In this document: piece after piece, positions 1 through 64,000 of the stretch | Layout of the letters: each line of letters starts with the position of its first letter | How positions within the stretch are numbered: the stretch's first letter is position 1 | Assembly: GCF_000745015.1 (NCBI RefSeq) | Contig: NZ_JQNA01000001.1 | Coordinates: forward strand, 1,116,001-1,180,000 | Direction: 5' to 3' | From: Burkholderia sp. 9120 | GTDB lineage: Bacteria > Pseudomonadota > Gammaproteobacteria > Burkholderiales > Burkholderiaceae | DNA: 64,000 nt | Notes under the pieces: model-generated | The model's database searches: none | What the model was told of the DNA's origin: nothing | The model's input: only the letters and a program-made list of their open reading frames with translations | Position numbers and translations under genes: made by a program

Positions 1-186
1 TTCGTCCAATTTGCTGAAACGTTGGAACAAAAGCGCAGCCACCGCGCAATTTAGGACGGAATCGCCGAGAAACTCGAGCCGTTCGTTATGCGTGGAGCTA
101 TGACTGCGGTGCGTTAAAGCCTGGCGCAACAATTCCGTATTGCGAAATTCGTAGCGCAGACGGCTTTCCAACGGAGATAGGGGCAT
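1..186 (-). CDS. rnc: Ribonuclease III, N-terminal part (cut by window edge)
   Basis: Only the first 62 codons are inside the window; the gene runs off the left edge. The translation from the ATG at 186 contains [11 protein letters not shown] (about residues 38-48), the signature helix of RNase III that carries catalytic acidic residues. RNase III cleaves double-stranded RNA in rRNA and mRNA processing. It lies downstream of lepA and lepB on the same strand, the usual lepA-lepB-rnc order of Burkholderiales. The family assignment is firm although the dsRNA-binding domain cannot be seen. Confidence 0.93.
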
Positions 187-360
187 GGGCAGAGTATAAC
201 GCGGGCGCCAGACCCGGCGAAAACGCGGGGCGGCCTGCGGAAAAAGCGTGGTGAAGCGACGTTACCGCGTGTTCTTAAAGTAGCGTGATAACACGCCGCG
301 ACTAACCTGACCTCAGTGGGGTCACGCGCGCGGCGTGCTGTGCAATCGCTGCACGCGAAC

Positions 361-1254
361 TCAGTGGAATGAGCCGATGCGTTTCAGATTGCTAAAGTTC
401 ATCCAGATAAAAAACGCGCGGCCGACGACATTCTTGTCCGGCGCAAAACCCCAGTACCGGCTGTCCGCGCTGTTGTCGCGGTTGTCGCCCATCATGAAGT
501 AGTTACCCGGCGGCACCTTGCAGATCACGCCGCGTGCGTTGTACGTGCAGTTATCGCGATACGGATAATCTTCCGCACCGACGATAAACGGCGGCACTGC
601 GGGATTGTTCAGAATCGCGTTCTTGCGGCCGCCCAGATCTTCTTCGAACTGCTTCGCATAGCCCATGCGTTCGTCGTCGAGGTAATCGGGCAGCGCCGTC
701 TCCGGCACCGGCTTGCCGTTGATCGTCAGTTGCTTGTCTTGATAAGCGATCGTGTCGCCCGGCAGGCCGATCACGCGCTTGATGTAGTCGACCGACTCGT
801 CTTTCGGATAGCGGAACACCACCACGTCGCCGCGTTCGAGCGGACGGCCCTCGGTGATCTTCGTGTTGGTGATCGGCAGGCGAATGCCGTACTCGAATTT
901 ATTGACGAGGATGAAGTCGCCCACCAGCAGCGTCGGCACCATCGAACCCGACGGAATCTTGAACGGCTCGACCACGAAAGAGCGCACCACGAACACCACC
1001 AGGATCACCGGGAAGAAGCTCGCCGAATACTCGAGCCACCACGGCTGACGCAGCTTGTCGTCACGCAGACGGGCGCGCGTTTGCGCCGCGTTTTCGTCGG
1101 CGAAACGCTCGCCGACGCGTGCCTGCTGGCGGTCAAACTCGGCGACCACGGCTTCCGCCGCGCGCCGCCGTTGCGGCAGGAAAACCAGTTTGTCTGCGAC
1201 CCATGCGACGCCCGTCAAAATGACGAGCACAAAAAGAATCAGCGCAAAATTCAT
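361..1254 (-). CDS. lepB: Signal peptidase I
   Basis: Inner-membrane serine protease that removes signal peptides from exported proteins. Two hydrophobic segments are visible (about residues 3-20 and 79-93). The catalytic serine is in PSGSMVPT (Ser104) and the general-base lysine is in YIKRVIGLPGD (Lys159). The C-terminal GDNRDNSADSRYWG box is intact, and 297 residues is normal for the betaproteobacterial family. It follows lepA after 18 bp and precedes rnc, so it is probably cotranscribed with both. Confidence 0.97.
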   Translation of the reverse strand: MNFALILFVLVILTGVAWVADKLVFLPQRRRAAEAVVAEFDRQQARVGERFADENAAQTRARLRDDKLRQPWWLEYSASFFPVILVVFVVRSFVVEPFKIPSGSMVPTLLVGDFILVNKFEYGIRLPITNTKITEGRPLERGDVVVFRYPKDESVDYIKRVIGLPGDTIAYQDKQLTINGKPVPETALPDYLDDERMGYAKQFEEDLGGRKNAILNNPAVPPFIVGAEDYPYRDNCTYNARGVICKVPPGNYFMMGDNRDNSADSRYWGFAPDKNVVGRAFFIWMNFSNLKRIGSFH

Positions 1255-51420: not shown

Positions 51421-53904
51421 ATGAGAACACTCACCAAAGATCAACACTCAAACCGCCGCATTACGGGCTACACCCTTATCGCGGCCGCCGCGTTCCTGTT
51501 CGCCGCCCAAGCCGGCATCGCGCAGGAAGTGCAGCCCGCTCCCCAGGTCGCCTCGACGCAGAACACCGATCCGCCGGGACGCGTTGCGCGTCTGAACTAC
51601 ATGGCCGGCACGGTAACCACCGAACCGGCCGGCGCGACCGACTGGTCGTACGCGCAGGTCAACCGCCCGCTCACCACCGGCGATCAGCTCTGGAACGATC
51701 AGAATTCGCGCTCGGAGCTGCACATCGGCTCGACCGCGGTGCGCCTCGATCAGTCCACCAGCCTCGACATCCTGAATCTCGACGACAACAGCGCGCAGCT
51801 CAAAGTCGCGCAAGGCACCTTGTCGACGCGGGTGCGCGAACTGGCGCCGGGGTCATCGTATGAAATCGACACGCCGAATCTTGCGCTTGGGCTGAACGGC
51901 CCCGGCGACTATCGCGTCGACGTCGCGCCGGACGGCAGCAGCACCAGCGTGACCGTGCGCAGCGGCAGCGCGACCGTGTACGGCGACAGCGGGCAGGTGC
52001 AAATCTCGCCGGGCCAGCAGGTCCGCTTCGGCGGCACCAACCTGCAACAGGTCGCCGACAACGGCGTGCCGGGCCTCGACGGCTTCGACCAATGGGCCGC
52101 CGCGCGCGATGCCGCCGAAGACCGCTCGGTGTCGGCGCGCTACGTGTCGCGCGACGTGCCCGGTTACGAAGACCTCGACGCCAACGGCACATGGCGCAGC
52201 AGCCCGCAATACGGCGAGGTGTGGGTGCCGCGCGCCACGCCGGTCGGCTGGGCGCCGTATCACGAAGGCCATTGGGTCTGGCAGGCGCCGTGGGGCTGGA
52301 CGTGGGTCGACGACGCACCGTGGGGCTTCGCGCCCTACCACTACGGCCGCTGGGCCCAGGTCGACGACGCGTGGGCGTGGGTGCCGGGTCCGATCGTGGT
52401 CAGCGCGCCGCCGGTCTACGCGCCGGCGCTGGTCGCCTTCGTGGGCGGCGGCGGTGGCGGCGGCATCAACTGGGGCGTGAGTCTGGCGATCGGCGGCGCG
52501 GTGGCAGCGGGCGTCGCGTGGTTCCCGCTCGGCCCCGGCGAGCCGTGGCATCCGCAGTGGGGTGGCGGTCACGATCACTGGAGCCCGGGTTACTACAACC
52601 GCGTCAACCAGACGACGATCGTCAACAACTACAACCACAACGTGACGAATGTGAATGTGACCAACATTCACAACACGTACATCAACTATCGCGCGCCGGG
52701 TGCTGTTACCGCAGTGCCGGCGACGGCCTTCGTGCACGGTCAGCCGGTCGCGCGCTTCGCGCAGAAGGTCGATCCGCGGCAATGGCGCAACGCGCAGATC
52801 AACCCGGGCGGTGTGGGTATCGCGCCGGTCAAGGAAAGCTTCGGGCCGGGTCTGCGCAACGCGAATTACCGGCCGCCGGCGGGTGTCGCGGCGCGTCCGG
52901 TGGTGGCCACGCGCAGTGCGGCCATGCCGGCCGCCTATCACGACACCCTCGCTCAGCGTTTCGCGCAAAGCGGTGGACGGGTGCCGGGCGCGGGTCAGCC
53001 GATCGTGCGGACTTCGGTGCCGGCGCATATGGCGGGCGGTCCGGGCGCGTTGCCGGTGCAGAACGTGCGGGTCGTGCAGTCGCATATGCCGGGACGCACG
53101 CCGGGGGCGGCGCCGGGCGCGCCTGGTGCGCCGGGTGGGATGCAGCAGGCAGGACAGCGTCCGGGTGCCATGCCCGGCGCGGCGCCCGGCCAGCCGCAAC
53201 GTGGCGAACAGGCGCAGGCTCGTCCGGGCACGCCGCAGCCGATGGCCAACGAACGCCAGCAGCCCGGCGAAGCGGGACATCCGGTGAATGGCGTGCCGCG
53301 TCCGCCGCAAGCGAACGGCGGCAACCCGCAGGCCAACGCGCAGCAGCACGGCATGCCGCAGCAAGCTGGTCAGCAGCCGGGCGCGAACGAGCGCCACGAG
53401 CCGGCATGGACGCAGCCGCATACGCCGATGGCCCAGCAGGCGCAACAGCATGGCGGCCCGCAGGAACCGGCGCGGCAGGCGGAAGCTCGTCCGCAGCAGC
53501 CGCAGCAGGCTGAGCGTCAGCCGGAAGCGCCGCGTGACGTGCAACATGAAGCGCAACGGCCGCAAGAGGCCCATCCGCAACCGATGCCGCAGGCGCAACA
53601 ACAGCCGCGTGAAGAATCTCATCCGCAGCCGGCGCAGCAGGCGCAGCAGCCGCGTCAGGAGGCACGTCCGGAACAGATGCAGCAGCCTCGCCCGGAGCCG
53701 CGTCCTCAGCAGGTTCAGCAGCCCCGTCAGGAACCGCGTCCGCAACAGGTGCAACAGCCTCGTCCGGAGCCGCGTCCGCAACCGGCACAGCAGCCGCACC
53801 CGGAACCGCATCCGCAGCAGGCGCAGCGTCCCGAGCCGCATCCGCAGCAACACGAGGAGCAACACTCAGCCGGCGGCAACCACGACGAGCATCACAAGAG
53901 CTAA
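51421..53904 (+). CDS. FecR/DUF6600 exported protein with Pro/Gln-rich repeat tail
   Basis: 827 residues. A signal peptide ends near GIAQEV (residue 37). Residues about 60-205 resemble a FecR-type domain (AGTVTTEPAG, TGDQLWNDQNSRSELHIGSTAVRLDQSTSL). Residues about 240-345 form a Trp/Tyr/Pro-rich DUF6600 block (GWAPYHEGHWVWQAPWG). A Gly-rich hydrophobic patch and an N-rich segment follow, and from about 560 to the end it is P/Q/R/A low complexity with a four-fold 12-residue repeat. No enzymatic site is seen; a cell-envelope structural role is inference. A terminator follows. Confidence 0.8.
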   Translation: MRTLTKDQHSNRRITGYTLIAAAAFLFAAQAGIAQEVQPAPQVASTQNTDPPGRVARLNYMAGTVTTEPAGATDWSYAQVNRPLTTGDQLWNDQNSRSELHIGSTAVRLDQSTSLDILNLDDNSAQLKVAQGTLSTRVRELAPGSSYEIDTPNLALGLNGPGDYRVDVAPDGSSTSVTVRSGSATVYGDSGQVQISPGQQVRFGGTNLQQVADNGVPGLDGFDQWAAARDAAEDRSVSARYVSRDVPGYEDLDANGTWRSSPQYGEVWVPRATPVGWAPYHEGHWVWQAPWGWTWVDDAPWGFAPYHYGRWAQVDDAWAWVPGPIVVSAPPVYAPALVAFVGGGGGGGINWGVSLAIGGAVAAGVAWFPLGPGEPWHPQWGGGHDHWSPGYYNRVNQTTIVNNYNHNVTNVNVTNIHNTYINYRAPGAVTAVPATAFVHGQPVARFAQKVDPRQWRNAQINPGGVGIAPVKESFGPGLRNANYRPPAGVAARPVVATRSAAMPAAYHDTLAQRFAQSGGRVPGAGQPIVRTSVPAHMAGGPGALPVQNVRVVQSHMPGRTPGAAPGAPGAPGGMQQAGQRPGAMPGAAPGQPQRGEQAQARPGTPQPMANERQQPGEAGHPVNGVPRPPQANGGNPQANAQQHGMPQQAGQQPGANERHEPAWTQPHTPMAQQAQQHGGPQEPARQAEARPQQPQQAERQPEAPRDVQHEAQRPQEAHPQPMPQAQQQPREESHPQPAQQAQQPRQEARPEQMQQPRPEPRPQQVQQPRQEPRPQQVQQPRPEPRPQPAQQPHPEPHPQQAQRPEPHPQQHEEQHSAGGNHDEHHKS
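53665..53808 (+). repeat. Four tandem 36-bp repeats (12-residue QQPRPEPRPQxV unit)
   Basis: The four units begin at 53665, 53701, 53737 and 53773 and encode RPEQMQQPRPEP, RPQQVQQPRQEP, RPQQVQQPRPEP and RPQPAQQPHPEP. Third-position differences between units show the array is not brand new. Copy number could vary among strains. Confidence 0.9.
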
Positions 53905-54107: not shown

Positions 54108-55724
54108 TCACAGTCCAGTGGCGCCCGGTGGTGCAGTCCACTCGCCCGACTCCGGACGTTGGGTAATACGCTCCAGCGGCTGTGCCGCCTGAGACGCCAC
54201 AAGTCCGCCAATCAGGTCGGCAAAAGGGACGATATTTCCGTAAGTGCTCGCCTGCTCAAGCGCGGCCAGATAAAGTCTGCGCGACTGGACCGTCACGATC
54301 GTCCACGGATACCCGCCGGTCGTCAGCATGCAGTTCATCAGGAATCGGCTAAGCCGGCCGTTTCCGTCCATGTACGGATGGATAAAAACAAAAATGAAAT
54401 GACCCAGCACCGCGCGCACGCCCGGATGTTCTTCGGCGACCAGCAGATCGAATAACGCAGGCATGCAGTCCCTCACGGCTTCAGGTCCGAGCGGCACATG
54501 CAACGCATTCCGAATGAATACCTGGCTGCTGCGGTATCCGGCAAGATCGGCCGGCTTGAGAATGCCGGCAGCAACACTGGGCGAAAACAGCGTCACATAC
54601 CATTGGAAGAAATCACGCCTCAGCGCCTCGGCCGGGTTGTCGGAAGCGGTCACGACCTGTCGGATCAGATCGCGAATACGTTTGTGAGTGTCCGCATAGC
54701 CTTTGGCTGCCATGGCTTCCTGAGTCTCTTTGTCCTCCGGATGGGTCAGCGGACTCCAGTTGCCGTTACGCACTTTCTCGATGAGCAAGGCATTCACCCG
54801 ATACCCCTCGATGGACAGCGAGTGATACGCATCCGCCACGTAACGTGCGGAAATATCGTCGATCAAAGCGTCCACGTCGCGAGGAGCTTGCTGGGGTATG
54901 TCGGCAAAGCGGTCAACTACCGCGTTTCGCATGGCAGCCCACATTGCCTGTATGCGTTGCACGTACGGCGACTCGTTGCGCCGCCCCGAGATCGCCACCA
55001 AAGACTGCTCGAACGGATTGCTCTCGCTGACGACGTAGTCCGCCGCCTTCAAGGTGGCGACGAGTTGACTGGCATCGTCGTCACGCCCTACCGCTCTCAG
55101 CGCGCCCGCCATCCGTCCGCCAATCACACTATGGCCGCCGGCAAGCAGCGCGGAAATAAGGTCCGTCAGATCGACCTGACGCATTGCAATCTGCGCAGCA
55201 AGCGGCTGCTTTTCGAAGAACGACGCGCCCACCCGAACCAGTGCCTCTGATACAGGAATCAGAAGAAGGCCGCTTGCGCTCGGTATCCGGCGCGCCGTCG
55301 ACGCTCGACGCTTCACCTGATAAAGAAAAACCGAGCAGCCGTGGGGAAGCTGCAAAAGCTGATTGTTCGCGTTCGCCGCATGAATCACGATCTGCGTGCC
55401 GATGCTGGTATAGCCGCTATGCCGAAGCAATGAAAACTCTGGATTGACCTCCCATTCGCTGCCGAAGCGGGCATTCGCATAGGCTGACACGAACGCCTCC
55501 ATGCTCGCGTACCAGAGGGTCGAGTCACCCGCGTCATCGGCGGGATTGTTGGCCATATACCATCCCGGGATGACGGCTTTCAGGAAATTGGCCCGCACCA
55601 GCCTTTCCCGATGGACACGGGTTAGCTCGGGCAGTGCACTGGCCTGAAAAACGCTCACGCCGCGGTCCTGGATCTGCTTCAACACCGACAGCGAGGCTGC
55701 GAGTTTTTCGTTGGTGGTCGGCAT
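54108..55724 (-). CDS. Fic-domain AMPylator with N-terminal AbiEi-like winged helix
   Basis: 538 residues. The Fic active-site loop is HPYMDGNGRLSR (His449), a good match to HPFx[D/E]GNGRxxR. The upstream inhibitory motif S-x-x-x-E-G is present as SLSIEG (Ser302, Glu306), so this is a class II autoinhibited Fic enzyme. The first ~110 residues (LKQIQDRGVSVFQASALPELTRVHRERLVRANFLKAVIPGWY-type) match the winged-helix start of AbiEi-family antitoxin/regulator proteins. The fusion suggests DNA-binding self-control. No separate antitoxin gene lies beside it. The gene is preceded by iterons. Target proteins are unknown. Confidence 0.87.
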   Translation of the reverse strand: MPTTNEKLAASLSVLKQIQDRGVSVFQASALPELTRVHRERLVRANFLKAVIPGWYMANNPADDAGDSTLWYASMEAFVSAYANARFGSEWEVNPEFSLLRHSGYTSIGTQIVIHAANANNQLLQLPHGCSVFLYQVKRRASTARRIPSASGLLLIPVSEALVRVGASFFEKQPLAAQIAMRQVDLTDLISALLAGGHSVIGGRMAGALRAVGRDDDASQLVATLKAADYVVSESNPFEQSLVAISGRRNESPYVQRIQAMWAAMRNAVVDRFADIPQQAPRDVDALIDDISARYVADAYHSLSIEGYRVNALLIEKVRNGNWSPLTHPEDKETQEAMAAKGYADTHKRIRDLIRQVVTASDNPAEALRRDFFQWYVTLFSPSVAAGILKPADLAGYRSSQVFIRNALHVPLGPEAVRDCMPALFDLLVAEEHPGVRAVLGHFIFVFIHPYMDGNGRLSRFLMNCMLTTGGYPWTIVTVQSRRLYLAALEQASTYGNIVPFADLIGGLVASQAAQPLERITQRPESGEWTAPPGATGL

Positions 55725-56028: not shown

Positions 56029-57000
56029 TCAGACCGCCATCGGCGCGGTCAACGGCTCGTGATGCCGGTAACCCACCAGCGAAAAGTCCGACGGCTCGAT
56101 CTTCTCCAGCCACTCCGGTTCATACACGCCGGTCTTCGCGTAGTCCGGCACCCGGTCCGAAATCGCGAACGCCGGGCTCTCATACGGCTCACGCGTCAAC
56201 TGCTGCTGCAACATATCGAGCTGGTTCTCGTAGATGTGCGCGTCGCCGATAAAGTACGTGAACCAGCGCGGCGTATAGCCCGTCAAGCGGCCCACCAGAT
56301 GCAGCAACGCCGCGCCTTCGGTCAGATTGAACGGCGTGCCGAGCCCAACGTCGTTACTGCGAATGTACAGACACAGCGAAATTTCGCGCCGCGCGACGTT
56401 CGGCAGGAACTGATACAGCAGATGGCAAGCCGGCAACGCAATCTGATCCAGCACAGCGGGGTTCCATGCATGAAACAGAATTCGCCGGTCGGCGGGATTC
56501 TGCATGATCGTGTCCAGACATTGCCGCAACTGGTCGATCGCCTTGTAGAGCAGCACTTTGGGGCTGCCGTTCTCGTCGAATTCGGTCACCACCTGGAAGC
56601 CACGCGACTGCGCGTCGGCCAACTGCGCGCTCGCGCCCGCGTCGAGCACCTTGTAGGCCGGCCACTGGCGCCACTGCACGCCGTACACGTCGCCGAGATC
56701 GTCCGGCCCTTCGCGATACGGATTGGCCAGCCACTGCGGATTCTGGTTCGCGTTCGCGTCCCATACCTTGCAGCCGAGGTCGCGAAAATCCGCGGCGCTA
56801 CGCGACGCGCGCAAAAATCCAACCAGTTCGCCGACCGCCGACTTGAACGCCAGCTTTTTCGTGGTGACAGCGGGAAAACCTTGCTGGAGGTCGAAGCGCA
56901 ACATCGCGCCCGGCATGCTGATGGTGCGGATGCCGGTACGGTTCTCCTGCCATGTGCCGGTGTCGAGAATCGTGCGGACGAGGTCCAGATACTGTTTCAT
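56029..57000 (-). CDS. thyA: Thymidylate synthase
   Basis: 323 residues from the ATG at 57000 ([15 protein letters not shown]). Makes dTMP from dUMP with methylene-THF. The nucleophile is in [40 protein letters not shown] and [13 protein letters not shown] are intact, as is the C-terminal ...TAPMAV in place of the usual APVAV. Slightly longer than the E. coli protein, with an extra region between about 85 and 150, normal in Burkholderia. A 26-residue upstream extension is rejected. Confidence 0.96.
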
Positions 57001-57180
57001 GCGGGTTCCTTCGACGACGCGCGCGGCGCAACAGCGAGACGCGCCACGGAAATTGAGCGGAAAACCCGATTTTAACAAGCGCGGCCGAACGACGCCGGAG
57101 CGCGGTATGAAGCGGAGAAAATAGTGATACCCGCCTTCCGCCCGGCCCGCGACACTCGCGAGGTCGGTCGAAAGCCGAGC

Positions 57181-58573
57181 CTAGAGATGCGGCACCGACG
57201 CCGGCAATTCGCCGTGCGGCGCGGCGAGCGGCTCGCCTTCCATATGCCGCATGCCATGCGAGCACAACAGGCGGTACAACGTGACGCGCGAAATACCGAG
57301 TTCCTGGGCGGCGTCGCCGAGACGGCCGCGATGGCGCAGCAACGCCAGTTCGATGGCCTGACGCTCGGCCGCCTCGCGTGCCTGCGCGAGCGACACGGGC
57401 ACGATCTCGACATACTCGGCCAGTTCCAGATCGCGCGCCGTGATCGCGCGCCCTTCCGACATCACGATCGCGCGCCGCACCCGGTTGATCAGTTCGCGCA
57501 CATTGCCCGGCCAGCCATAGTTATGCAGCGCCGCGATCGCATCCGGCGCAAAGCCGCGCAGACGGCGGCTCGCATCTTTCTTGAAACGTTCCAGCATGTG
57601 CCGCGCAAGCAGTTCGATATCCTTACCGCGCGCGCAGCGGTGGCTCGTCGATCTGCAGCACGCACAGACGGTGATACAGATCGGAGCGAAAGCGCCCTTC
57701 GATCATCGCGGCGGTCATATCCACGTGCGTGGCCGAGATGATGCGCACGTCGACGTCGATCGCACCATGGCCGCCGAGCCGCTCGACCTTGCGTTCCTGC
57801 AGAAAGCGCAGCAGGCTCGCCTGGCTTTCGAGCGGCAGATCGCCGATTTCATCGAGAAACAAGGTGCCGCCATTGGCGGCTTCCACGCGGCCGATCTTGC
57901 GCTGATTCGCGCCCGTGAACGCGCCGCGCTCATAACCAAATAGTTCGGATTGCAACAGATGCGGGGGAATCGCACCGCAGTTGATCGGCACGAACGGCGC
58001 GTTGCGCCGTGCCGAGCGTTCGTGAATCGCGACCGCCGTCAATTCCTTGCCGGTGCCCGATTCACCGGAGATGAACACCGGCGCGTCGGTCATGGCCACT
58101 TTGCGGATGGAGCGGAACAGCGCGAGCATGGCGTCGCACGAGCCGACCATTTCGCCTTCGGCGCCTTGCGATGCATCGTTCGAAGCGGGTTCGCCCAGCG
58201 AGATCATGCCGTACGCGTGACCGACCGAATCGACGATGCGGTCGCCCGAATACGGCACCGTCACATAGTCGAAACAGTAGTCGCGCACGAGCCGGCGCAA
58301 AGCGGCGTCCTGTAACTGGCCGGGCAACGTGGCCGCGACCCAGCCGACGTTCGGCATGGTCAGGCAGGATTCGAAGGCGGCAATTTCATGCGGCTGGAAG
58401 TCGCTGCACAGATCGAGCAGGCCGCCCGCCGCCATTCCGGCGCGAACCGCCCGGCGCACGTCGCGCGCCGATCCCACCACTTCGACATGCCAGCCACGCT
58501 GATGAAAGCGTGTGTTCAGCTCCGCGCTCGGGTCGCGTGAAACATAAATCAGTTGCCGCGTTGCGGGTTCCAT
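57181..58573 (-). pseudogene. VpsR-like sigma-54 activator, frameshifted
   Basis: One gene split into two frames by two missing bases. The first part (58573-57623) has an N-terminal receiver-like domain (residues 1-140), Walker A GESGTGKE (170-177), GAFTGA (217-222), Walker B LFLDE (238-242) and the DLYHRL arginine-finger region, then ends at PPLRAR-stop. The second part (57597-57181) starts inside the AAA+ lid (GWPGNVRELIN) and ends in a Fis-type HTH (LGDAAQELGISRVTLYRLL). Adding CG to the tract at 57627-57635 restores PPLRARGKDIELLARHMLERF-type continuity, giving about 464 residues. It is divergent from the Fap-like operon. Confidence 0.9.
57627..57635. repeat. CG dinucleotide tract at the frameshift
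   Basis: CGCGCGCGC lies inside the coding sequence of the sigma-54 activator, immediately before the premature TAA (57625-57623 on the minus strand). One more CG unit restores the AAA+ domain frame. Confidence 0.9.
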
Positions 58574-58738
58574 TATTCAGATCCTCTCGTCAACGAACGT
58601 TAAGGATGACGCACGCACCTGAACCAAGATTCAGACACGCTGACTCGTTCGGGATTCGCGCAATAGCAAAAACCGAACGGCCATTCCATTCCGTGCGGAC
58701 AGCTGATCCCCAAGAAAGCGGCGTGTGTGTTTGAGACG

Positions 58739-58758
58739 GCCCGTTAGCGGGCTTTTTT
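58739..58758 (+). terminator. Intrinsic terminator with no plus-strand gene upstream
   Basis: GCCCG (58739-58743), loop TTAG, CGGGC (58748-58752), then six T. It is oriented with the plus strand, while the only nearby upstream gene is on the minus strand. It may end a small RNA or an antisense transcript (see findings). Confidence 0.6.
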
Positions 58759-58975
58759 AAATCTGAAGCTCTTTTTCGAGAGCTTACTATACGCGCGTCG
58801 CTTGGAAAACAATTATGCGAATTTAATCGCAAATCCCATACCCAGTAAGGTTTAGCGGGCGATCCACCGAGATTAAGCCGACAAATAAAAGACGAGTGGA
58901 AGCGCTTTTCCTAGCGTAGACCCGAAGGTACTTCGTACCGCCGCAATTAACAAATTATAGGTATTTTCTGCCTGC

Positions 58976-58993
58976 CGTTTCAGCGCTGAAACG
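58976..58993. promoter_or_regulatory. 18-bp perfect palindrome, candidate activator site
   Basis: CGTTTCAGCGCTGAAACG is a perfect inverted repeat centred about 84 bp upstream of the -24 element. That is within the normal enhancer distance for sigma-54 activators. Binding by the divergent VpsR-like protein is inference. Confidence 0.6.
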
Positions 58994-59067
58994 TTTTTGT
59001 CCGATTTGTCGAGGCTGACTCCGGGGTATGCGGGTCGCATCCAGATGCACCAATGGATTGCGAGTGA

Positions 59068-59082
59068 TGGCACACGTTTCGC
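59068..59082 (+). promoter_or_regulatory. Sigma-54 (-24/-12) promoter
   Basis: TGGCAC (59068-59073), five bases, then TCGC (59079-59082); the invariant GG and GC are exactly ten bases apart. The consensus is TGGCAC-N5-TTGC, so one base differs. The predicted start at about 59094 leaves a 17-base leader carrying AAGGAG before the ATG at 59111. Confidence 0.75.
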
Positions 59083-59110
59083 TAAATGCTGTGCACCAAG
59101 GAGACACATC

Positions 59111-59617
59111 ATGCGACTCGCTTTCCGCACCGAACTGAGCAGCCTCGCATCTTGCGCCGCACTGTGCGCCGCAGCCGCTCTGTTCGTGCTGCCCGCCGGC
59201 GTCCGCGCTCAACAGGCTGTCCAGGCGCAAACCGCCACGCTGGCCGATTCCGCCGACTCGAACGACAGCGGCTTCGCCTCGTTCACGAACGCGACGCTCC
59301 GCGTTAAGGCCGCGCCCGACTGGGCGACCTCGATGGCCAGCGAATTCCGCCTGCTCGCCGGCAACGTGCTGAGCCTTCCGGTCGATGGTGCATCGGTGAA
59401 CGATTTTTCGCTCGACGACCAGGTCTTGTCGCGGCAACGCGGCGGCGCGGTCGGCATGTTGATGGTCGCGGCGACGCCGCAGTTGATGCGTGGCAACGGC
59501 AACGGTAACGGCGTGACGCTGTGGGACGAAATCGCCCCGCCCTCGTCGCCGCTGCCGATTCCGGTCGACGCCGCGCGTTCCGCGCAAGGCAACGTGGCCA
59601 ATTACCAAAGAAAGTAA
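59111..59617 (+). CDS. Exported protein with double-glycine-like motif, first gene of Fap-like operon
   Basis: 168 residues from ATG 59111 (AAGGAG about ten bases upstream). A signal peptide ends near GVRAQQA (residue 33). The mature part is hydrophilic with a Gly/Asn run (RGNGNGNG). Residues 101-112 read LDDQVLSRQRGG, with hydrophobic at -12, Leu at -7 and Gly-Gly at -2/-1 relative to a C39-type cleavage site. Two other proteins of the operon have the same pattern. It is not related to any family I recognise; by position it may be an accessory like FapA, by inference only. Confidence 0.75.
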   Translation: MRLAFRTELSSLASCAALCAAAALFVLPAGVRAQQAVQAQTATLADSADSNDSGFASFTNATLRVKAAPDWATSMASEFRLLAGNVLSLPVDGASVNDFSLDDQVLSRQRGGAVGMLMVAATPQLMRGNGNGNGVTLWDEIAPPSSPLPIPVDAARSAQGNVANYQRK

Positions 59618-59700
59618 CCGAACAGATTAACGACGCATACCGGCGACGGTGACGCGCACAGCGCGCCACCCGCTCACAGAGACGAAGGCAAGGGACCGAA

Positions 59701-60240
59701 ATGACTATCTCAACCCGCATGCCGTACGCGCACAGGTCGCCGCAGGCGACCTCGCACCCGGCCCGCCGTCCCGCCGCCCTGGCCGCACTAGCCGGAGCCG
59801 CCCTGCTCGCCGCATGTTTCAGCGTCTGCGCCAACGCGCAACAGACCGTCAATCCTGGCGACATCATCGTTGAACGCACGGTCACGCCGCGTGACGCGTT
59901 CATCCCGGTGCCGAAAGATCAGGATCCGGTCGCCGTACGCGCCACCACTTTCCCGGCCAATTCCTTCAATCCGGCAATCGCCCAACTCGTGGGCGATACC
60001 GATCTGACGAATGCGCACGGGTCCAGCGGCGTCGCCGACGGCGGCGTGCTCGGCGGCACCGGCATGCAGGCGGTCACGCAAATCCTGAGCGGCAAGTCGA
60101 CCGGCAACAACGTCGCGCTGAACGCGGGCGGCATCGGCCTGCCCGGCCCGGGGATCGGCGGCACGATCACCTCGTCGGTCACCGGCGCGCTGGCACCGCT
60201 GTCGAACGCGCTGAGCGGCTCGCTCGGAGGTTTGAAATGA
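59701..60240 (+). CDS. Exported Gly-rich protein of Fap-like operon
   Basis: 179 residues. A signal peptide with a long basic N-region ends at CANAQQ (about residue 47). The central motif VGDTDLTNAHGS (97-108) fits the double-glycine-like pattern (V at -12, L at -7, G at -2). The C-terminal 50 residues are small and Gly/Leu/Ser-rich (GGIGLPGPGIGGTITSS), as in secreted structural proteins. Its last codons overlap the next gene (ATGA). Function unknown. Confidence 0.75.
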   Translation: MTISTRMPYAHRSPQATSHPARRPAALAALAGAALLAACFSVCANAQQTVNPGDIIVERTVTPRDAFIPVPKDQDPVAVRATTFPANSFNPAIAQLVGDTDLTNAHGSSGVADGGVLGGTGMQAVTQILSGKSTGNNVALNAGGIGLPGPGIGGTITSSVTGALAPLSNALSGSLGGLK

Positions 60241-60881
60241 ACCCGCTCAACTCGCGTTCACCGCGCTTTCGTTCGCTGCATACCGCGCTGTGCCTGTGCT
60301 TTGGCGGCGTGGCGCTGCTGGCCGGCCAGGCGCATGCGCAAGCCGTGCCGACCGTCGGCGCCAATGCGACCATCGGCAACGGCGCCGGCGCGGGTGTCAC
60401 CGGCGCGTTCGCGGTCAATGAAACGGCCGGCCTCGACAACGCGCAGGCCAATCAGATCACGCTCACAAACGGTGGCTCGGTCGGCAATGCCAACGTCAGC
60501 ACGCAAAGCGCGAGCGTCGCCGCGAAGGTCACGACGGCGCGGGCGTCGATCGAAGCCAATGCTTTTTCGAATACATCCGGCGCGGTACTGGTGAACCAGT
60601 CCGCCGGAGCAGGGAATCTGCAGCGCAACAGCACCCAGATCGGGACCGCCGCTGTGCTCGGAGTCGAGACCGTCTCGGATGGGGAGCTATCCGCGACGGC
60701 CCCGAAAAACGGAAGTCTGGGTCAATCCATCGGGGTTCATAGCGTCCGCGAAGCCAACATCTCCAGCGATGCCTTCAGGAACGTCGGCGGGATCGTGCAG
60801 ATCAACCAGACAGCCGGCGCCGGTAATGCCACGGCAAACAGTTTTGTGCTCCGTCCCCCGGCGGGCACTTTTTTTAACTGA
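60237..60881 (+). CDS. FapB-like repeat protein, candidate minor amyloid subunit
   Basis: 214 residues. A signal peptide ends at QAHAQA (residue 34). Three imperfect repeats follow: TGAFAVNETAGLDNAQANQI (55-74), SGAVLVNQSAGAGNLQRNST (114-133) and GGIVQINQTAGAGNATANSF (184-203). The G-x-hydrophobic-x-h-N-x-[ST]AG-x2-N pattern with N/Q ladders resembles repeats of FapB/FapC functional amyloids. The linkers are about 40-50 residues. The ATG overlaps the preceding stop. Amyloid formation is inference. Confidence 0.75.
   Translation: MNPLNSRSPRFRSLHTALCLCFGGVALLAGQAHAQAVPTVGANATIGNGAGAGVTGAFAVNETAGLDNAQANQITLTNGGSVGNANVSTQSASVAAKVTTARASIEANAFSNTSGAVLVNQSAGAGNLQRNSTQIGTAAVLGVETVSDGELSATAPKNGSLGQSIGVHSVREANISSDAFRNVGGIVQINQTAGAGNATANSFVLRPPAGTFFN
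60846..60875 (+). terminator. Possible attenuator at the end of the FapB-like gene
   Basis: GTGCTC (60846-60851) pairs with GGGCAC (60863-60868, one G-U) with seven T following at 60869-60875, inside the last codons of the gene. It is a weak stem, but it is placed to reduce readthrough into the downstream FapC-like gene. Confidence 0.4.
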
Positions 60882-60907
60882 CCACACTTAAAGTATCGGA
60901 GCGAATC

Positions 60908-62299
60908 ATGAAGCGCACTCTTATTGCCGCAGCCGTCCTCGTTGCCGCATCCGGCAGCGCCTTTGCCGCACCGCAAAAGGTCTACCTGTTCAATGCCACG
61001 CTGGTGGGTGAAGCGGTCGGCGTCGAAGGTCTGGTTGGCCTGTACGGTTGCGTGCACGTGTCCAGCACGGCCGGCGCGGTGATCAACAACAGCCAGATGG
61101 TCAGCGTCAACGCGTCGCTCGACCCGCAAGCCCAGAGCTACACGAGCGGCCACGTGACGACGTCGGTGAATAACAACTCGTCGTCGGTCGTCGGCGGCGG
61201 CGTCGCGTACGCCGTGCTGACGCAAAGCCATTCGTCGAAATCGTCCAGCTCGCAAGGCGCTCAGGCGTCGGCCGGTTATGTGTACGGCAGCCAGAGCAGC
61301 GCGGTGCAAGGCGGCGGCTATTCGTTCAGCCAGCAGGCAGCCGGTATTGAAGGCGGCTTCAGCCACACCAGCCAGAACGCCGGCGGCCATATCGCGGCCG
61401 GCGGCTCGATCGGCGGCAGCTACAACTATCAGGGCTTCAATACGCCGTTCTTCGGCGAAGGCTCGGCGCATGCAAGCGGCGGTTTCTCGGCCGGCTACAA
61501 CGAATCGAGCTATGCCAACTCGGCGGGTGTAGCGGGCGGCTTCGAAGCCAGCGAAGGTTCGGGACAAGGCAAGGTGTGGGGCTACAAGGCTAGCCAGGGC
61601 TCCGGCTACGCCGCGGTCGGCGAACAGTCGTCCAGCTATTCGAAGAGCTCCTCGTCTTCCACCGACGCCTACGGCGCAGCCTGGGGTATCGACGCCAGCC
61701 TCGCCACGACCGACGTGACGACCAAAGGCTCCGTGACGCAGCACATCAACACGCAAGCCGCCGGCACGCTCACCGCCACGACCGGCAACGGCGCCGCCAA
61801 CGGTGTCTCGGGCAACCTCGGCATCAACATCACGGAAGGTATCGACAACGCTCAAAGCAACGACGTGTCGCTCGCTTCGGTCGACGTCGGCAACGTGTTC
61901 GGCAATGCGCAGATCTTCAACGCGCAAAGCTCGGCCGGCACCGCCAAGATCAACAACTTCAATCTGAACGCGTCGATCGGCGACAACTCGCTGCAAAGCG
62001 TGTCGGGCAATGTCGGGGTGAACGTCTCGTCGGGTATCGGCAACGTGCAGAACAACAGCCTCGCCGGTGCAGTGACGACGACCACGCCGATGAATGCCGA
62101 AACCACGGCAATGGTCGCCACGGATGACAACTCGCAATCCGCCAACATGTCGGTCAAGGGTCAATTCCAGGGCACCGCGATGCTGGGCGCAGGCGCTTTG
62201 ATGAACGCGTCGGGCAACATCGGCGTGAACATTGCCGGCGGCGCGGGCAACCTGCAACACAACGGCCTCGCGATCGCAGCGCTGAACAGCGGTCACTAA
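60908..62299 (+). CDS. FapC-like repeat protein, candidate major amyloid subunit
   Basis: 463 residues with a signal peptide ending at SAFAAP (residue 21). Residues 100-260 are Ser/Gly/Tyr/Gln/Ala low complexity with no other structure (QSSSYSKSSSSSTDAYG). Then come three 18-residue repeats at 301-318 (SGNLGINITEGIDNAQSN), 366-383 (SGNVGVNVSSGIGNVQNN) and 435-452 (SGNIGVNIAGGAGNLQHN). The linkers are of unequal length. The S-G-N-x-G-x-N-[IV]-x2-G-x2-N-x-Q-x-N unit fits the Fap-subunit class. GGAG lies nine bases upstream of the ATG. Amyloid assembly is inference. Confidence 0.8.
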   Translation: MKRTLIAAAVLVAASGSAFAAPQKVYLFNATLVGEAVGVEGLVGLYGCVHVSSTAGAVINNSQMVSVNASLDPQAQSYTSGHVTTSVNNNSSSVVGGGVAYAVLTQSHSSKSSSSQGAQASAGYVYGSQSSAVQGGGYSFSQQAAGIEGGFSHTSQNAGGHIAAGGSIGGSYNYQGFNTPFFGEGSAHASGGFSAGYNESSYANSAGVAGGFEASEGSGQGKVWGYKASQGSGYAAVGEQSSSYSKSSSSSTDAYGAAWGIDASLATTDVTTKGSVTQHINTQAAGTLTATTGNGAANGVSGNLGINITEGIDNAQSNDVSLASVDVGNVFGNAQIFNAQSSAGTAKINNFNLNASIGDNSLQSVSGNVGVNVSSGIGNVQNNSLAGAVTTTTPMNAETTAMVATDDNSQSANMSVKGQFQGTAMLGAGALMNASGNIGVNIAGGAGNLQHNGLAIAALNSGH

Positions 62300-62404
62300 G
62301 CTGACAGCACCGCGACAGCGGGTAGAAGAAGCCAGAAAAGCAGCAGGGAGGAAGCGCCGGCCGCCATCGAAGCGGCCGGCGCGACCACAAAGCAGGAGAC
62401 CAGC

Positions 62405-63118
62405 ATGTCCGGGTTCAAGGGGTTCCCGGCGCTACGCTTCGCCGTAGCGTTGGCAAGCTGCACGCTGTGCGTGGACCAGACTTACGCGCAGGCGAGCATC
62501 GACACGTCCACCTTCGCGGGCGTGCCGTTGACGAAGACGGTTCGTTCGATGAAGGACATCCGTTACAGCCACATCGTCAATCAGCAGTTCGACTACAGCT
62601 GCGGTGCGGCAGCGCTTGCGACCCTCCTCAAATTCGGCTACGGCATCGACATTCCGGAGACCGAACTGATCCGCCGGATGATGGTGTTCTCCACGCCCGA
62701 AGTGGTGGTCAAGAATGGCTTCTCGATGCTCGACATGAAGAAGTTCGTCGAGACCATCGGCATGCGCGGCCGCGGCTTCCGGGTCACCGTCGACGCACTC
62801 CAGCATTTACAGATTCCCGTGATGGTGTTGATGAACATCGACGGGTACGAACACTTCGTGATCGTCAAGCACGCCGAGCAAGGCCGCATCTTCATTGCGG
62901 ATCCGGCGCTGGGCAATCGCATCGTGATGCAGGAGGACTTCGCGAAGACCTGGAACGGTCTCGTCTTCGCGGTCCTCGGCAAACCCTTCAGGGAGGATTC
63001 ACCGCTCTTGCAGGACAACGAGTCGCTTGCGCTGAAGCTGCGCGCCAACGCGCTGGCTAACGGCACCGCGGCGACTCCCTTTGTCGAGTACGGCTTGATC
63101 AAGGCAGACCTGTTCTGA
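62405..63118 (+). CDS. Exported C39-family cysteine peptidase (FapD-like)
   Basis: 237 residues with a signal peptide ending near QTYAQA (residue 29). The C39 catalytic set is complete: Gln60 and Cys66 in NQQFDYSCGAAALATLL, His150 in DGYEHFVIVKH and Asp166 in FIADPALG. C39 peptidases normally cleave double-glycine leaders inside ABC exporters; stand-alone exported C39 proteins occur in Fap operons as FapD. It lies between the FapC-like gene and the last gene. AGGAG is about nine bases upstream of the ATG. Confidence 0.88.
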   Translation: MSGFKGFPALRFAVALASCTLCVDQTYAQASIDTSTFAGVPLTKTVRSMKDIRYSHIVNQQFDYSCGAAALATLLKFGYGIDIPETELIRRMMVFSTPEVVVKNGFSMLDMKKFVETIGMRGRGFRVTVDALQHLQIPVMVLMNIDGYEHFVIVKHAEQGRIFIADPALGNRIVMQEDFAKTWNGLVFAVLGKPFREDSPLLQDNESLALKLRANALANGTAATPFVEYGLIKADLF

Positions 63119-63125
63119 CTCAACC

Positions 63126-63935
63126 ATGAAGCAACAGCTCACTCAGCTCGGGCTCGCCATCTGCACCTTGATGTGCGGCCTGACCAGCAGCGCCCATGCG
63201 GCACAAGGCACCGGCTCGCCACCGGTGCCTGAATTTCTCGCCGCTCACGATACCGACGCTGCAGCCCTCAAGGTGCAGATGGTCGGCGACGACGTACTCG
63301 CGACCCAGACCGGCAAATACGCCGGCGGCACGATGATTTCCGGCTTCGTGCTGAACGTCATTTCGCAATGGCAGTTGCCCAACGGCGTGACCGCCCTCGC
63401 CCAGGGCACGCTGTCGGCGGTGCAGAACGCCGTCGGACAGGTCACCACCGCCGTCAATTCGATGGCGAGCGTGACGGGAGGCAACGGCGGCAATGCAGGC
63501 AACACGGGCGCCAACCCGAATGCTCAAGCCACGGGCGGACAAAACATTTCGGTCAACGGGGTGTCGCAAGTCACCCAGGTCGCGGGCGATAAGAACACGG
63601 GTTCCAACTCGGCAGTCATCGATTTCAATAATAACGCCGTGATTCTGGGGGGCGCCGCCAATGTCCCGTCAGCAGCGGCCAGCAATTCGACCGGCTCAGT
63701 GAAAGCCGGCATCACGTTCGGCAGCAATGGCATTAGCGTCGCATTACAAACACCGGCTGGGCTCGCCACCCAGACCATCACGCCAGGCAACGGGCAGATC
63801 GCCCAGTTACTACAGATTGCAGGCAATAACCAGCAAGTCGCCAACGCATTGCAGTTGAGTTTGCAGACGCAGCAAATGTCAGCCGCGATGATCCGTCAGT
63901 TAGGCGTACTACAAGCGCTGCAAAACCGGAGATGA
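63126..63935 (+). CDS. Exported Gly/Asn/Gln-rich protein, last gene of Fap-like operon in window
   Basis: 269 residues with a signal peptide ending near SAHAAQ (residue 26). Residues 53-64 read VGDDVLATQTGK, the same spacing as in the 59111 and 59701 proteins (V -12, L -7, G -2), followed by YAGGTMISGFVLNVISQWQ. The middle is Gly/Asn-rich (VTGGNGGNAGNTGANPN) with a Fap-like ISVNGVSQVTQVAGDKN segment. The C-terminus is Gln-rich and helical. Likely an accessory or subunit of the same system; FapE-like is a guess. Confidence 0.75.
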   Translation: MKQQLTQLGLAICTLMCGLTSSAHAAQGTGSPPVPEFLAAHDTDAAALKVQMVGDDVLATQTGKYAGGTMISGFVLNVISQWQLPNGVTALAQGTLSAVQNAVGQVTTAVNSMASVTGGNGGNAGNTGANPNAQATGGQNISVNGVSQVTQVAGDKNTGSNSAVIDFNNNAVILGGAANVPSAAASNSTGSVKAGITFGSNGISVALQTPAGLATQTITPGNGQIAQLLQIAGNNQQVANALQLSLQTQQMSAAMIRQLGVLQALQNRR

Positions 63936-64000
63936 CGCGGCGGGCCGCCACCCGCCAACCGTAGGACCAGCAGTAAAGATACGGCAGCGCGCCGCCCGGC
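63936..64000. other. End of window after the last operon gene
   Basis: 65 bp with no feature. An outer-membrane porin such as FapF, which closes Pseudomonas fap operons, is not visible and would have to lie beyond the right edge. Confidence 0.5.

Follow-up and report, generated by a model that had tools for sequence, protein, structure and literature searches.

A stretch of 64,000 nucleotides from Burkholderia sp. 9120 (contig NZ_JQNA01000001.1, positions 1,116,001 to 1,180,000; hereafter the window), a strain that we treat as a Paraburkholderia, almost certainly carries a Fap functional-amyloid operon, the type with which bacteria make the amyloid fibres of biofilms, judging from gene identities and order, and the main interest of the locus is a concrete candidate cleavage site for FapD, the C39 peptidase of that operon. 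The site is a 12-residue motif found in FapE and in the product of an additional first gene, which we name fapX, and in both it has anchors of the leaders recognised by the C39 domains of ATP-binding cassette (ABC) exporters, namely a hydrophobic residue at -12, L at -7 and G at -2. The best overall explanation is that FapD probably cuts FapE and FapX at this motif; the motif in FapE is likely to be a FapD site, and we lean, somewhat less firmly, towards FapX as a substrate as well. The target of FapD has been called unclear or yet to be determined (2017, PMC5557850; 2018, PMC6173800), and a review of 2025 states that it is “thought to” process FapE and FapF (PMC12822426); these and all other papers given by PMC number are cited from excerpts. 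With a specific, conserved stretch of 12 residues to aim at, present both in FapE and in the additional protein, this question becomes directly testable. In searches of a library that lacks most subscription papers, no paper listed for FapD or FapE cleavage or for leaders described fapX or the motif in its title or abstract opening.

The operon consists of six plus-strand open reading frames (ORFs) in the window, each with a signal-peptide-like start read from its translation, as a previous sequence-only reading had reported, and of fapF just past the window edge. The NCBIfam models for FapA, FapB, FapC, FapD and FapE match in order, which bears out the earlier proposal of a Fap-like operon and its suggestion that the 214- and 463-residue proteins be compared with the FapB and FapC profiles and the 237-residue protein with FapD. 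Every NCBIfam score at this locus is under the curated cut-off, and therefore the window Fap proteins are divergent members. FapB and FapC each show in translation the three N/Q-G repeats already recognised, and the repeat region of FapC (about residues 282-457) aligns with solved FapC chains (9u4u, 2e-13; 9nqd, 1e-12). FapD, likewise previously described as an exported C39 enzyme, belongs to Peptidase_C39 (PF03412, 8e-23), and its Cys66, His150 and Asp166 do not vary among 10 aligned sequences, four of them distant C39 paralogues. A FapF-like pore to the right of the window had been set beforehand as a check, and it was found directly downstream: residues 178-478 match the chain of the FapF crystal structure in a sequence search (expectation value, E, 4.6e-81), in agreement with a FapF beta-barrel pore, and the protein matches NF058560 at 3.6e-105, again under the cut-off. 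The genes fapA to fapF are thus all present on one strand, with one extra gene in front. The ORF of that gene was listed from an earlier TTG at 58997, and an ATG stands at 59111; profile scans matched FapX to no Pfam or NCBIfam family, and there were no Rfam matches in 57000-64000.

When the genus was searched with fapD (117 genomes, our own included), 95 genomes gave a match at E 6e-110 or better, and one locus was compared from each of 40 of the 94 others. In all 40 the row thyA-Reg1-X-fapABCDEF-Reg2-folA is whole, where X is fapX and Reg1 and Reg2 are regulators, and so the layout is not a matter of chance; we take the minus-strand gene 56029-57078 for thyA and the gene L002:10641-11141 for folA. 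The sequence-only reading had instead seen a gene order foreign to Pseudomonas, three extra exported proteins and possibly an undescribed fibre system. Scores under all cut-offs and an extra first gene are what such a system might show, but two of the three proteins are FapA and FapE, the order is the canonical one behind a single additional gene, and a Burkholderia fapABCDEF operon has been published (PMC3792158), so that this idea is refuted by gene identities and order and is hardly credible. Fap has in fact been known in Burkholderia since 2013: Dueholm et al. described it in Beta-, Gamma- and Deltaproteobacteria, frequently in Burkholderia, with a single fapABCDEF operon as the usual order (PMC3792158). 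The operon studied here is the same system, and the excerpt of that paper does not mention the extra first gene, the activators or a C39 leader motif. Compared with Pseudomonas fapABCDEF (FapF 5o65; FapC 9u4u and 9nqd), the window operon is alike in its six genes, their order, the C39 triad, the three FapB/FapC repeats and the N-terminal extension of FapF, whereas it differs in the presence of fapX, in the roughly 260 residues that precede the first FapC repeat, in the two flanking activators with a VpsR domain, and in NCBIfam scores that all stay below the curated thresholds. The operon is ordinary by identity, and its conserved extra gene and its control set it apart as a variant.

Conservation singles out the motif in both proteins. 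Across the 41 loci (the window and the 40 relatives) the first 90 residues of FapX are almost unconserved, and strong conservation sets in with LDDQxLSxQRGGxxGM; L101, D102, D103, L106, Q109, R110, G111 and G112 are invariant in 14 sequences with a variable N-terminal half, and GG occupies -2/-1 in 41/41 loci. FapE conserves VxDxVLAxQTGK at residues 53-64 across the same loci. A class-wide survey of 369 genomes gave FapE matches in 15 other genomes, with 16 copies that all fit [LIV]xxxx[LM]xxxRG[KR]; 15 of the 16 were located with a pattern requiring [RTS]G[KR], which leaves only -12 and -7 free of that choice, and the sixteenth (L180), which fell outside the location pattern, carries the motif too (LTDGELSGMRGR). 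Both proteins agree at -12 and -7 with the published C39 leader consensus, Leu(-12)-X3-Glu(-8)-Leu(-7) followed by a double-Gly step (PMC6363468); Glu(-8) is found in most of these FapE copies and is missing from FapX. A matrix built only from 15 FapE copies of other genomes, with the window FapE left out, was applied to 387 six-frame ORFs, 60 amino acids or longer and most of them not genes, from the window and the downstream stretch. It placed the window FapE first (16.1) and FapX second (11.9), and the next ORF, which is unrelated, scored 9.4; the observed score was reached by 0/5000 shuffles for FapE and by 9/5000 for FapX. FapA, in which VGDTDLTNAHGS looks alike by eye, was rejected as a carrier, as 3158/5000 shuffles reach its score. 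In low-confidence structure models (predicted local distance difference test, pLDDT, 51), FapE has a short helix at the motif (residues 55-61) and a beta-rich body from residue 69, and the sole helix in the C-terminal half of FapX spans residues 103-110.

The motif also stands beside other periplasmic C39 genes. In the genus, 26 of the 117 genomes have a second C39 gene with 33-38% identity to FapD, and a FapF-like barrel lies nearby in all 14 of these loci that were fetched (L073-L086). These second fibre-like clusters contain Gly-rich exported proteins, a small RGG-motif protein, the C39 peptidase, a larger RGG-motif protein and the barrel; in L075, the one scanned, the peptidase matches NF058616 at 3.6e-41 and the barrel NF058560 at 2.1e-42, and matches of the FapD, FapF, FilB and FilC types are only weak. 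We looked for [LIVMF]x4[LIVMF]x3RG[GKRAS] in ORFs that were signal-like according to our own hydrophobicity rule and lay on the same strand as a periplasmic C39 gene, no more than 4 kb from it, and found it near the peptidase in 14/14 second-type loci and in 19/30 loci of other taxa. The frequency was 11/17 among loci unseen before the motif was fixed and 8/13 among those previously seen. Of 166 ORFs at the 30 loci, 23 carry the motif, where 200 shuffles gave 5.0 on average and 13 at most, and over all loci it is present in 51/256 near ORFs and in 18/902 others, the latter being a rough control of ORFs at least 5 kb away (no signal filter) or signal-like on the other strand. In 14 of the 30 loci the carrier begins 460-735 bases after the start of the C39 match, which is the position of fapE.

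The distribution of FapX provides a further line of evidence. The gene lies upstream of fap in 40/40 relatives examined, and among 299 genomes of the family (FapD threshold E up to 1e-40, FapX threshold at least 48 bits) FapD was found in 91, FapX in 57 and both in 52. As 39 genomes have FapD without a FapX match, not every Fap operon comes with FapX. The motif is present in FapX of five further genera that carry Fap (5/5): LDDQVLSRQRGG in L214, LDDRVLSNQHGR in L215, LNDQVLANQRGT in L216, IDEDTLNQQRGR in L211 and LDDGQLGRARGR in L213. The L213 copy with LDDGQLGRARGR is the one upstream of fapA; beyond fapF, L213 has a second FapX-like ORF (50-502, plus strand) with ISDVALAAAHGT followed by KLWDEILPP. 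Conversely, 5 genomes have FapX without a FapD match, among which L233 ends at a contig end, has the motif and was left out of the co-loss count, as were the short, odd ORFs of L209 and L210. FapX of the fapD-less loci L212 (VDAGVFARQRER) and L230 (LAGHTLTRHGRS) is without G at -2, and that of L231 keeps GG with R(-3) replaced. Eight further fapD-less Burkholderiaceae loci (L204, L205, L206, L208, L234-L237) retain thyA-Reg1-folA together with a short exported protein resembling FapX, in which VTLWDE remains and the motif is absent (8/8). In total, 11 of the 12 FapX-like proteins that were read in fapD-less genomes lack the motif or have it in changed form.

That these short proteins persist without the motif where no fapD was found, and that the second FapX-like copy at L207, in a genome that has fapD, is also without it, could mean that FapX plays a separate, accessory role and that its RGG motif is incidental rather than a FapD site. 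We consider this quite unlikely, as the motif is among the best-conserved parts of FapX in 41/41 fapD-positive loci and FapX came second in the window with a matrix made from FapE only. The persistence of motif-less proteins in fapD-less genomes nevertheless indicates that the C-terminal part of FapX (VTLWDE) probably has a role independent of Fap.

Several points weigh against cleavage at the motif as we propose it. Exporter leaders end in GG, GA or GS (PMC6363468), and FapE has K at -1 in the window and K or R in 16/16 other copies; in FapX this position is G, with R or T instead in some other genera, so that the exact bond is ambiguous. In the FapE of Paraburkholderia, -3 is T or S instead of R, and both structure models are of low confidence. 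The fapD-less locus L232, with remnants of fapA, fapC and fapF, keeps the FapX motif. As to the neighbour test, it was not blind, since 13 of its 30 loci had been seen before the motif was fixed, and the 30 include close relatives (7 Lysobacter and 6 Halothiobacillus/Guyparkeria-like loci), along with some that are related to the FapE training set. Of the 19 hits, five lie elsewhere than in the gene that directly follows the C39 gene (L157, L160, L161, L174, L198), and 11 of the 30 loci lack the motif by pattern. By eye and post hoc, 9 of these 11 have the motif, either intact or changed at one position (L156, L158, L159, L162, L164, L172, L175, L199, L203), L197 has a weak form and L202 has none. 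Finally, mass spectrometry (MS) of Fap proteins gave no sign of processing for FapA to FapD, and Fap proteins are said to lack canonical C39 sequences (PMC5557850).

The same study found that FapD and its active-site Cys are needed for FapC secretion in an E. coli assay and that the first 70 or so residues of FapE are without MS peptides (PMC5557850). These results bear on the possibility that the motif is a docking element only, through which FapE and FapX bind FapD or FapF, with FapD serving as a chaperone or cleaving some other protein, for example FapF. Catalytically inactive C39-like domains are known in type 1 secretion, and two Lysobacter loci (L157 and L161) also have the motif, near residue 63, in the ORF that stands where fapF is expected. 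The FapF linker (residues 60-100) was moreover judged potentially processed by MS (PMC5557850). Docking alone is unlikely, given that FapD retains Cys66, His150 and Asp166, that secretion requires the active-site Cys, and that the part missing from the MS data is the N-terminus of FapE.

Cleavage of FapE and FapX by FapD can be accommodated in the following scheme. The fapX-fapABCDEF operon would be read from a single sigma-54 promoter controlled by VpsR-type activators, and all its products would be exported by Sec. Periplasmic FapD would then recognise the leader type of ABC-exporter C39 domains (hydrophobic -12, L -7, G -2), binding the helical leader present in FapE and, within Burkholderiaceae, in FapX too, and would cut at or next to the RG(G/K/R) or TGK step. 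The freed C-terminal parts of FapE and FapX, which secretion would require, may open or prime FapF, through which FapB and FapC would leave to form the fibre. FapD is a C39 peptidase like the double-glycine leader proteases of ABC exporters (LahT 6mpz, ComA, PCAT1; a profile of A2 matches 6mpz at 1e-10), and the motif shares the -12, -7 and -2 anchors of their leaders; FapD differs in being a free periplasmic enzyme whose substrates would be Sec-exported with an internal leader, and in the frequent K or R at -1. We give about an even chance to a more general proposal for the periplasmic C39 peptidases of Fap and Fap-like fibre systems. Once Sec export is complete, these enzymes would read the same double-glycine leader code as ABC exporters, and the proteins encoded next to them would have an additional leader inside the chain (hydrophobic -12, L -7, often R -3, G -2). 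FapE would then be the substrate common to these systems and FapX a second one specific to Burkholderiaceae, and the FapD cut would be the switch that permits FapC secretion. The 12-residue site in FapE and FapX would link periplasmic amyloid biogenesis with the leader recognition of bacteriocin exporters and offers a route to substrates beside other periplasmic C39 genes.

The region in front of fapX and the two regulators point to the control of the operon. A GG-N10-GC element resembling a sigma-54 -24/-12 promoter (TGGCACACGTTTCGCT) is kept with small changes in 41/41 loci. In 38 of them the picked fapX start follows 42-45 bases later; in L046, L047 and L056 the picked start is further downstream, at a distance of 148-156 bases. 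Upstream of the -24 element, at 74-75 bp, a palindrome has inner 16 bases that fit GTTTC[AG]N4[TC]GAAAC in 38/41 loci, and the remaining 3 have it with one mismatch at 75 bp. The genome has four sites of this palindrome (GTTTCAnnnnTGAAAC), the others being at G000:C1:1407045, C2:1695317 and C2:1810317, and one of these three is identical to the fap site. We rejected a palindrome regulon: around two of the other sites there are transposase- and integrase-like genes (by eye) and no obvious biofilm operon. Reg1 is divergent to the operon and Reg2 (516 residues, open) comes after fapF, and both combine the VpsR domain PF20161 with a sigma-54 AAA+ domain containing GAFTGA. In all likelihood, this arrangement places the operon under sigma-54/VpsR-type control, and regulation by cyclic di-GMP may be involved. 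In P. fluorescens PF07, fapA has an RpoN promoter and the fap genes need the adjacent activator BrfA (PMC9207406), and the window is alike in its sigma-54 promoter-like element with an adjacent sigma-54 activator. BerB of B. cenocepacia binds cyclic di-GMP, acts with RpoN and has GAFTGA (PMC5552954); Reg1 and Reg2 resemble BerB and VpsR of V. cholerae in having a VpsR domain and a sigma-54 AAA+ domain, with GAFTGA as in BerB, and their target is probably fap rather than exopolysaccharide or vpsT.

In 40/40 relatives Reg1 is a single ORF of 461-465 amino acids. Here it is in two frames with a gap at 57598-57622, its spacing being 2 bases shorter than in the relative L033, and this split may be either a real frame disruption or an assembly error. 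With the divergent activator broken, in contrast to the intact ORF of all the relatives, the operon might be silent in this strain, but Reg2 offers a second, open VpsR-type activator downstream, the structural genes are open and the split could be an artefact of assembly, so that silence is very unlikely.

Table 1. Position of the fap operon, its candidate FapD motifs and its putative control elements (window coordinates unless a contig or locus is given)
Feature	Position	Strand	Details
Reg1, C-terminal piece	57181-57597	-	AAA lid and Fis-type helix-turn-helix; separate frame in this genome; 138 aa (amino acids)
Reg1, N-terminal piece	57623-58573	-	VpsR domain PF20161 2e-19; sigma-54 AAA+ PF00158 3e-68; GAFTGA read from translation; 316 aa
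Palindrome	58976-58993		CGTTTCAGCGCTGAAACG; candidate activator binding site
Sigma-54 -24/-12 promoter-like element	59068-59083	+	TGGCACACGTTTCGCT; GG-N10-GC
fapX (name given here)	59111-59617	+	168-aa exported protein; first operon gene; no Pfam/NCBIfam family
C39-leader-like motif in FapX	59411-59446	+	LDDQVLSRQRGG; residues 101-112
fapA	59701-60240	+	NF058617 7.6e-10, under cut-off
fapB	60237-60881	+	NF058557 3.2e-20, under cut-off; three repeats; 214 aa
fapC	60908-62299	+	NF058558 1.9e-12, under cut-off; 463 aa; three repeats after long N-terminal region
fapD	62405-63118	+	Exported C39 peptidase, 237 aa; NF058616 8.7e-64 (215 bits, cut-off 330)
fapE	63126-63935	+	NF058559 5.5e-10, under cut-off
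C39-leader-like motif in FapE	63282-63317	+	VGDDVLATQTGK; residues 53-64
fapF	G000:C1:1180040-1181476 (L002:7541-8977)		Next gene, just past the window edge; crystal-structure and NF058560 matches

Elsewhere in the window, the minus-strand gene at 54108-55724 encodes a 538-residue protein with HPYMDGNGR, which we take to resemble a Fic motif, and the plus-strand gene at 51421-53904 encodes an exported-looking protein of 827 residues with a long Pro/Gln-rich C-terminal region.

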